Shown: positions 23,380-25,233 of the stretch, in pieces
How the letters are laid out: the number at the start of each line of letters is the position of its first letter
Position numbering within the stretch: the first letter of the stretch is position 1
NCBI GenBank assembly: GCA_001464915.1
Contig: LNED01000038.1
Coordinates: 62,001-126,000, forward strand
Direction of reading: 5' to 3'
DNA from: Sphingomonadales bacterium Ga0077531
GTDB taxonomy: Bacteria; Pseudomonadota; Alphaproteobacteria; Sphingomonadales; Sphingomonadaceae
DNA length: 64,000 nucleotides
Program-made: the position numbers and the translations under genes
Notes under the pieces: generated by a model
Told to the model about the DNA's origin: nothing
What the model saw: the letters and a program-made list of their open reading frames with translations, nothing else
Database searches by the model: none

Positions 23380-23428
23380 GGGGGCGCGCAGCGATGCGTG
23401 GTAGGCCTGCGGGCAGAGGAGAGACATG

Positions 23429-24238
23429 ATGGGACAATTGCAAGGCAAGACCGCAGTGGTGCTGGGGGCGGCATCGGAAGGCAACATGGGCCAGACCATC
23501 GCCCGCCTGTTCGCAAAGGAAGGTGCGAAGGTGATGGTGGCGGGCCGCAAGGAAGCCCCGCTCGCCGCGTTGGCTGAAGATATCGGCGGGGCCTATGCGC
23601 TGTGCGACATTGCCGACCGCGCGCAAGTCAATGCGCTGGCAGACAAGGCAATAGAAACCTTTGGCCGGGTCGATATCGCGATCAACACCACCGGCTGGGG
23701 GCTGCTCGCCAGCATGGAGGAGATCACCGAAGAACAGCTCGACCAGATCGTCGATCTGCAATTCAAGGGCGTGCACCATTTCTTGCAAGCGTTTGTGCGG
23801 GTGATGAGCGCGCAGCAACCCACCGGCGGATCGCTGATTTCGCTGTCTTCGGCGACGACCAAAGCGATCATCACCAACCACGCTGCCTATATCGGCACCA
23901 AGCGCGGCAGCGAGGCGTTGATCGAGTGTGTCGCCAATGATTACGGTCACTTGGGGATCAAGGCCAACACCGTTTCCCCCGCCTTCACCGATAGCCCGAT
24001 GACGCATGACAGCTTTCAGGTGCCCGGCCTGACCGATGCGTTCCTGCCGCGTTACCCGATGGGGCGGCTCAATACGGTGGACGATGTCGCCCATGCCTGT
24101 CTGTGGCTGAGCACCGATCAGGCCTATGTCACCGGGGCCAATATCCAGCCAAATGGGGGACTGGCGATGCGCGGCAATCCGCAGGCGGGCGATGTCGCAG
24201 CGGCGATTGGCGCGGCGATGGCGAAGTTGCAGCAATAG
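23429..24238 (+). CDS. SDR family oxidoreductase
   Basis: GKTAVVLGAASEGNMGQTIARLFAKEGAKV, YIGTKRGSEAL. Confidence 0.85.
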   Translation: MGQLQGKTAVVLGAASEGNMGQTIARLFAKEGAKVMVAGRKEAPLAALAEDIGGAYALCDIADRAQVNALADKAIETFGRVDIAINTTGWGLLASMEEITEEQLDQIVDLQFKGVHHFLQAFVRVMSAQQPTGGSLISLSSATTKAIITNHAAYIGTKRGSEALIECVANDYGHLGIKANTVSPAFTDSPMTHDSFQVPGLTDAFLPRYPMGRLNTVDDVAHACLWLSTDQAYVTGANIQPNGGLAMRGNPQAGDVAAAIGAAMAKLQQ

Positions 24239-24244
24239 GCCGCT

Positions 24245-24280
24245 GCCCTGCCGATGTTTCACGTGAAACATCGGCAGGGC
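24245..24280. other. parS centromere-like site (ParB-binding) embedded in a 36-bp perfect palindrome
   Basis: GCCCTGCCGA-TGTTTCACGTGAAACA-TCGGCAGGGC; core 24255-24270 is identical to the canonical 16-bp parS consensus; intergenic between convergent genes. Confidence 0.88.
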
Positions 24281-24340
24281 GTGGATCAAGCCGGGGTCAA
24301 GCAGGGGTCAAGACGGCACCAAGACCAGCCTAGCCCCGCA

Positions 24341-25129
24341 TCAATATTGCGCCGTCCCGCCATCCACGCTGATCTGCTGGCCGGTGATGCCGGCCCCAGC
24401 CTTGCTAGCCAGCAGCACCGCGACGGCGGCCACTTCCTCGACCGTGTTGGGGCGCTTGATCGCCGAATCGGCGGCGAACATCGCGATCATATCGTCCAGT
24501 TCCATCCCCATCGCTTTTGCGGTCGCCGGGCCGTTGTTCTTGATGATGTCGGTGATGACGATCCCCGGGCAGATCGCGTTGACGGTCACGCCTGACACGC
24601 CGACTTCGCGCGCGACGCTTTTGGTCATGCCGTTGACTGCGTGTTTGGCGGCGGAATAGGCGGTCAGCACCGGCTTGCCATGCTTGCCTTCCATCGACGA
24701 GATGTTGATCACCCGGCCATCACCCTTGGCGATCATGGTGGGGAGCGCGCGCCGCGTGGCCCAGAAGGTGGAATAGACGTTCCATTTCATCGCTTCGTCA
24801 AAGGCGTGATCGGACAGGTTGACCAGCGGCTGCAAATCGCCTGCGCCGCCGGCGTTGTTCACCAGAATGTCGAGCGTGCCGAAATGCTTGATCACGGCGT
24901 CGATGAAGCCTTCCAGATCGGCCTGCTCCATCACGTCGCCCGCGATGAAGATTGCGTTCTCTCCCGCGCCGAGTTCTTCGAGCACCTTCGCGCCCTTTTC
25001 GGCATTGCGGGCAAACAGTGCCACCTTGCCGCCCTCGGCCAGAAATGCCTCGGCAATCCCGCGCCCCATGCCTGCCGTGCCGCCGGTAATCGCGGCGATT
25101 TTGCCTTCCAGTTTATTGGCCAGTTTCAT
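24341..25129 (-). CDS. SDR family oxidoreductase
   Basis: MKLANKLEGKIAAITGGTAGMGRGIAEAFL, YSAAKHAVNGM. Confidence 0.88.
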   Translation of the reverse strand: MKLANKLEGKIAAITGGTAGMGRGIAEAFLAEGGKVALFARNAEKGAKVLEELGAGENAIFIAGDVMEQADLEGFIDAVIKHFGTLDILVNNAGGAGDLQPLVNLSDHAFDEAMKWNVYSTFWATRRALPTMIAKGDGRVINISSMEGKHGKPVLTAYSAAKHAVNGMTKSVAREVGVSGVTVNAICPGIVITDIIKNNGPATAKAMGMELDDMIAMFAADSAIKRPNTVEEVAAVAVLLASKAGAGITGQQISVDGGTAQY

Positions 25130-25180
25130 AGTGCAGCTCTCCTTTGACTGCAGGGGTAGCGGTCTGCGCGGCCAAGCGCA

Positions 25181-25201
25181 CCTTGCCAAAATGAGCAATT
25201 G
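25181..25201 (-). promoter_or_regulatory. shared island motif, copy m3
   Basis: reverse complement reads CAATTGCTCATTTTGGCAAGG; between divergent starts 25129(-) and 25234(+). Confidence 0.5.
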
Positions 25202-25233
25202 CCGCACTGCCCCCGCAGCGCCTCTATGCCCGC

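Follow-up and report, generated by a model that had tools for sequence, protein, structure and literature searches.

ParABS marks the origin of replication so that the origin is the first region of the chromosome to be segregated. The chromosomal parS sites known so far lie almost exclusively near ori (PMC5815017, PMC7022226), and in experiments on Caulobacter and Pseudomonas, parS sites outside the origin region proved harmful and were selected against. Caulobacter tolerates additional parS clusters only when they are placed within ~500 kb around the native one, and a parS site of Pseudomonas has to be within ~650 kb of ori (PMC5815017). Sets of ~50–70 palindromic sites dispersed round the chromosome are known from the ParB-fold protein Noc, with its NBS sites in B. 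subtilis (PMC4331003), and from SlmA, with its SBS sites in E. coli. In P. aeruginosa, ParB occupies many loci away from ori through half-parS binding, which involves 7-bp half sites, gives narrow peaks, and is weakly specific (PMC7022226, PMC10419367). Hairpins between convergent genes are also formed by REP elements and by convergent-gene terminators.

The locus described here is a palindrome in a window of 64,000 nucleotides, which is the whole stretch of DNA that was analyzed and forms part of contig C38 of genome G000 (2.84 Mb, 48 contigs). It shares with the ParABS systems of Caulobacter, Bacillus, and Pseudomonas the same 16-bp site, the position of parAB beside mnmG/rsmG, and an origin cluster, but differs from them in having 30–60 conserved single sites spread uniformly from ori to ter. 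This dispersal is like that of Noc/NBS and SlmA/SBS, whereas the site itself is parS and not NBS, and a dedicated paralog was not found in G000. Unlike the half sites of P. aeruginosa, the sites described here, identified by sequence, are full 16-bp palindromes that are conserved in position and evolve in concert. The window palindrome also resembles REP elements and convergent-gene terminators, being a hairpin between convergent genes at a junction where other species have such hairpins, but its parS core is invariant and most other dispersed sites carry no extra arms. We consider it very likely that the window site is a member of a conserved, genome-wide set of parS sites, at every one of which ParB-CTP would be loaded. 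While parS and ParB are already known, what we regard as a new variation is that one genus has gained a conserved, chromosome-wide set of full parS sites linked to a phased array.

The window palindrome and the parS sites of its genome

The sequence at positions 24245–24280 of the window is GCCCTGCCGATGTTTCACGTGAAACATCGGCAGGGC, a loop-less perfect palindrome of 36 bp, and its central TGTTTCACGTGAAACA (24255–24270) is an exact match to the 16-bp parS palindrome of the TGTTNCACGTGNAACA type, so that both observations of the earlier note were borne out. The occurrence of the exact 16-mer by chance, which that note had placed at the order of 1e-5 per 64 kb, was computed as 3–5e-6 expected copies per 64 kb using either base or dinucleotide composition, and the ten further complementary pairs have a chance probability of ~2e-6. 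The palindrome begins 6 bp past the stop codon of one gene and faces a second gene on the opposite strand, both of which were assigned to the SDR family by Pfam. The features of this junction are as follows:

23426..24238, + strand: SDR-family oxidoreductase, the convergent upstream gene
24245..24254, no strand: left arm of the extended palindrome, hairpin stem; perfect complement of 24271–24280, with arms that covary between species
24255..24270, no strand: parS core TGTTTCACGTGAAACA, predicted ParB-CTP loading site; exact match, one of 22 exact copies in the genome
24271..24280, no strand: right arm of the extended palindrome, hairpin stem; complement of the left arm, with an RNA fold
24282..24334, + strand: array of 11-bp-spaced units, the G-rich strand running away from parS
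24341..25207, − strand: SDR-family oxidoreductase, the convergent downstream gene, whose ortholog served to locate the junction in 114 genomes

The scan of the whole genome proposed earlier was carried out and yielded 22 copies of the exact 16-mer in G000, compared with 0 for the reversed control, as well as ~20 more copies with one or two mismatches. Six copies were located in the canonical origin neighborhood of mnmG, rsmG, and parA on contigs C46 and C47, two further copies, of which one is exact and the other has a mismatch, lie at the end of C43 and mapped to the origin cluster, and the remaining copies were scattered across many contigs. The window palindrome almost certainly carries a genuine parS site.

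ParB homologs placed G000 with Erythrobacter/Porphyrobacter. The parA gene was found on contig C47, and the chromosomal parB, which lies next to parA in relatives, was absent from the assembly, where a gap follows parA on C47. Several breaks of this MAG assembly fall in the parS cluster of the origin (contigs C46, C47, and the end of C43). Within the origin cluster, parS sites are contained in the coding sequences of mnmG and rsmG (mnmE in relatives), where they are read as the peptides MFHVKH or NVSRETF (L017, positions 654, 1641, and 2277; L070).

Distribution and inheritance of the dispersed sites

The sites were mapped on two chromosomes that were each available as a single contig. G003 (3,090,363 bp) contained 52 exact and 11 one-mismatch parS sites, with the origin cluster at 950–955 kb and the terminus at 2.652 Mb according to the GC skew and a dif-like site, and G022 (2,979,257 bp) contained 56 sites, with the origin cluster at 418–423 kb and dif at 2.014 Mb. 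In species with dispersed sites, the origin cluster comprises 5–8 sites beside the canonical parAB and mnmG/rsmG. The dispersed sites were distributed uniformly from ori to ter in both genomes (KS p =.76 in G003 and.67 in G022), and thus an origin-proximal location, which is usual but not defining for parS, does not apply to the dispersed set. The closest pair of sites was 8.3 kb apart in G003 and 11.6 kb apart in G022, while random placing gives ~0.7–0.9 kb (P ~1e-4 and ~4e-5, respectively). This minimum spacing resembles the length over which ParB spreads in Caulobacter, which is roughly 10 kb (PMC5815017). Beyond the minimum distance, even spacing was not significant in G003 (CV 0.84, P 0.13) and weak in G022 (CV 0.75, P 0.025).

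Terminus exclusion, as expected of a Noc-type system, was suggested by G003, in which no exact site lay within ~175 kb of dif and one-mismatch versions occurred there instead (Mann–Whitney p = 2.5e-4). However, avoidance of the terminus was rejected as a rule, because an ordinary site of G022 is located 45 kb away from dif, and several G022 orthologs of the near-dif one-mismatch sites of G003 are perfect. Seven of the 10 one-mismatch dispersed sites of G003 lie within 250 kb of dif (G003:C1:2403266-2855156). According to rough gene calls, 47 of the 55 dispersed G003 sites are located between genes, at 26 convergent, 18 co-directional, and 3 divergent junctions. The usual layout consists of the stop codon of gene A, ~10–30 bp, parS, the array, and the stop codon of gene B.

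When the neighborhoods of the sites were compared, 24 of 34 dispersed G000 sites were, by our count, at junctions also bearing a site in G003, and the genes flanking these shared sites were mostly only ~72–85% identical. The counterpart of the window site is G003:762526. The window junction was fetched in relatives via the SDR gene, which gave 30 loci including that of G000, and a site was present in 20 of them, with the exact 16-mer in 13, whereas in 7 the T/A at position five was replaced by C/G in one half-site or in both. The loci lacking a site contained other inverted repeats or unrelated sequence; G010, for example, carries the inverted repeat CCCGTCATCCCGG..CCGGGATGACGGG and no parS. 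In species without parS, the gap between the SDR genes was seen to contain CGTCATCCCGGCGAAAGCCGGGATC-type inverted repeats, which are dispersed hairpins resembling REP elements (L273, L275–L277, L289, L291, L301).

On these comparisons, the dispersed sites, including that of the window, are vertically inherited. The earlier note had regarded the region as a catabolic island, whose parS implied either that the island had acquired it or that the location was origin-proximal. Acquisition by the island is ruled out by the orthologous positions, as the site is kept at the same SDR–SDR junction in many species. Proximity to the origin is not implied by the parS sequence, because dozens of identical sites occur all round the chromosome, yet in the genomes that have the junction and the origin cluster on one contig, the two are separated by 136 kb (G011), 196 kb (G025), 190 kb (G003), and 136 kb (G022).

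The numbers of sites in the genus were determined in 114 genomes searched with TGTTYCAYRTGRAACA; the comparison genomes included E. cryptus DSM 12079 and E. colymbi JCM 18338. The genus splits cleanly into 66 genomes with 0–5 sites, which represent the origin cluster only, and 48 genomes with 9–75 sites, with no genome having 6–8. Of 395 alphaproteobacteria drawn from the whole class, almost all had 0–5 sites, and the outliers were G374 (79), G000 (27), G355 and G518 (18 each), G346 (13), G442 (10), and a few genomes with 7–9. Given the clean split of the genus and the low counts of nearly all genomes in the class, dispersed parS is a clade trait, perhaps with a few independent cases elsewhere, of which G374, G355, and G518 are possible parS expansions. 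The dispersed set very probably arose in the Porphyrobacter-like part of Erythrobacter. G374 is an unrelated alphaproteobacterium with a genome of 1.8 Mb and 79 TGTTYCACGTGRAACA sites.

Concerted change of the sites, hairpin arms, and alternative readings

The sequence TGTTTCACGTGAAACA does not occur anywhere in the genome of G022, where ~52 of the 56 sites read TGTTCCACGTGGAACA, whether they belong to the origin cluster or to the arms. A comparison of G022 with G003 indicated that TGTTTCACGTGAAACA was replaced by TGTTCCACGTGGAACA in place, both at comparable dispersed junctions and at origin-cluster sites; one compared stretch lay too far from the site for a decision, and G022 had no site at the G003 junction 2403266. 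The base change preserves base pairing within the palindrome, but pairing alone is insufficient to explain the switch, because it would not drive all sites to the same base pair. The ParB protein of G022 carries H197, F217, K221, and T222 in its HTH DNA-binding domain, residues found in none of the 55 other ParBs compared, and K221 replaces an arginine that is invariant in these 55. In our alignment via the conserved GHAR motif, residue 221 would correspond to R204 of Caulobacter, which is one of the residues that contact parS and are shared by ParB and Noc (PMC7383237). The domains of a cognate ParB (ParB_N, HTH_ParB, and dimerization) were recognized by Pfam in the G022 protein, and its altered HTH residues are candidates for having been matched to the new base. 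Because two positions changed together at ~50 loci, a trans-acting reader shared by the origin and the arms is indicated. The concerted switch and the HTH changes thus argue, indirectly, that one protein, ParB, must read the origin and the dispersed sites.

The earlier note had placed the 10-bp flanks outside the parS consensus and proposed that the other copies be checked for them, and this view was upheld, since arm complementarity was at chance over the dispersed G003 sites (3.51 vs. 3.39 of 10) and only slightly raised over the G000 sites. At the window junction, the arm sequences differ between species while their complementarity is kept (6.65 of 10 vs. 3.88 for swapped arms, 0 of 5000 permutations), in a permutation test that is conservative because arms were swapped between relatives. 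Over 20 species, two-sided changes were found in nine of nine arm pairs, and 75% of the arm cells were paired, compared with 48% when shuffled and ≤40% when slid, with the kinship of the species ignored. Extended arms were consequently rejected as a general part of the parS element, as they covary at the window junction and not over the dispersed G003 sites.

The RNA of the + strand folds with −55.2 kcal/mol (z −6.0), and that of the − strand with z −4.9. No U-tract follows the hairpin, and the palindrome was absent from the terminator-like sites of a terminator scan, so that an intrinsic (Rho-independent) terminator was rejected, its GC-rich hairpin being present and its T-run missing. A search of Rfam returned no family at gathering score and only sub-threshold hairpin look-alikes. 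The strong folds of both strands and the missing U-tract favor a Rho-assisted or RNA-end-protecting hairpin over an intrinsic terminator, and the window arms are probably a shared 3′-end structure for both convergent genes. The proposal that the flanks act as a hairpin or terminator for both genes therefore stands with respect to the hairpin, which covaries over 20 species, and falls with respect to the intrinsic terminator.

It is improbable that the palindrome is solely such a bidirectional terminator or 3′-end hairpin, with the parS match as an incidental or historical apex sequence. This reading would account for the covarying arms, for the position directly behind a stop codon between convergent genes, for the other inverted repeats in species without parS, such as G010, and for the 26 of 55 dispersed G003 sites at convergent junctions. 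However, the arms change freely around a constant 16-bp core, the 16-mer is also present at sites whose arms lack complementarity and inside coding genes of the origin cluster, the U-tract is missing, and G022 switched all of its sites at once, including the origin cluster. The outcome that the earlier note had named as a refutation of its parS reading, a palindrome that is only a terminator, is thus unlikely.

It is still less probable that transposition spread the dispersed copies as a mobile or REP-like repeat family containing parS. The composite of parS and array, its dozens of copies, and its patchy occurrence in the genus would fit such a family, but the flanks have no common sequence beyond parS and the array, positions are kept between species while the flanks diverge, non-orthologous copies with shared ends were not found, and the minimum spacing is unexpected for random insertion. 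An ancient burst of repeat spread with later fixation is a possible variant. That a protein other than ParB, such as an unrecognized Noc-like paralog, reads the dispersed sites in the manner in which Noc reads ~70 dispersed palindromic sites in B. subtilis (PMC4331003) is highly improbable, since the dispersed sequence is that of parS rather than of the Noc site, the search of G000 yielded just two ParB_N-domain genes, both on apparent mobile elements and neither of them a dedicated Noc-like paralog, and the origin and dispersed sites switched together in G022. The two ParB_N-domain genes adjoin recombinase-like genes (G000:C22:81349-81627, L068; end of G000:C32, L069) and probably belong to mobile elements.

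The phased array and the possible role of the set

Most dispersed sites are accompanied on one side by tandem units of GGGGTCTAG/GGGGTCTGG with a period of 11 bp, also written (GGGGTCTAGNN)n, whose G-rich strand leads away from parS. The five units of the window begin at 24282, 24293, 24304, 24315, and 24326, with strong GGGGTCAAG units at 24293 and 24304 and the others degenerate, and this array is the sole occurrence of the pattern GGGGTC[AT]AG or its complement in the window. The units lie on an 11-bp grid counted from the edge of parS, with 92 of 92 strong G003 units within 2 bp of it, and the arrays of G000, G011, and G022 agree closely with the G003 grid out to ~70 bp. Arrays were found in 31 of 48 genomes with dispersed sites and in 1 of 66 without them (Fisher p = 1e-14, ignoring the kinship of the species), while at least 17 genomes with dispersed sites, for example, G035, G066, G105, G107, G109, and G136, have no array of this consensus. 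The origin-cluster sites carry no arrays, and no polarity of the arrays relative to replication was seen in G003. A literature search confined to open papers found nothing on the GGGGTCTAG array or on dispersed parS in Erythrobacter/Porphyrobacter. The array could bind one protein per helical turn, form a G-rich structure (G-runs spaced by 7 nt), or, on the C-rich strand, give a Rho-binding RNA, and because it is in register with parS, we favor something that touches ParB on the DNA.

In the mechanism that we propose, the ParB of the mnmG/rsmG/parAB parS cluster would also load as a CTP-dependent clamp at ~30–60 single sites. These loading sites would be found on both chromosome arms, at least one ParB-spreading length (~8–12 kb) apart, in gaps that are mostly behind gene ends, where promoters would stay undisturbed. 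At most dispersed sites in many species, the one-sided 11-bp array in helical register would be part of the element, and because the origin cluster has none, the array may hold a second protein or a DNA structure that limits or directs ParB/SMC at single sites. At the window junction, the arms would additionally form an RNA/DNA hairpin as the 3′-end structure of both converging genes. The cellular role of the set could be the loading of condensin (SMC) along the arms and/or a Noc-like coupling of DNA to division; other possible roles are gene regulation and a Noc-like restraint of division, which in alphaproteobacteria might act via MipZ.

In B. subtilis, SMC loading sites are tuned in number, strength, and distribution so that collisions of SMC are avoided (PMC8357415). 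In view of this tuning and of the limits on parS in Caulobacter and Pseudomonas, some dispersed sites could be weakly used, and the array may be part of the answer to how arm-wide parS is tolerated. More tentatively, ParABS may have changed in this clade from a centromere confined to the origin into a platform for ParB along the whole chromosome, with dozens of conserved sites, many of them insulated or directed by the phased 11-bp array and its partner, and with ParB doing the job of Noc in Bacillus and/or loading condensin along the arms.

Related species with ~3 or up to 75 parS sites constitute a natural experiment on the confinement of parS and on the tuning of ParB/SMC loading, and a genus with low and high parS numbers bears on how Noc-like dispersed systems could begin. 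The G022 switch offers a natural case of a DNA-binding protein and ~50 of its targets changing together, while the phased 11-bp array points to a factor working beside ParB.

Approximately 15 GGGGTCTAG arrays without a recognizable parS were also observed in G000 (L072–L101, e.g., G000:C22:204496, C13:31163, C15:16925, and C43:42196). Some of these lone arrays may be relics, since one of them, L088, maps to a G003 junction that retains parS.
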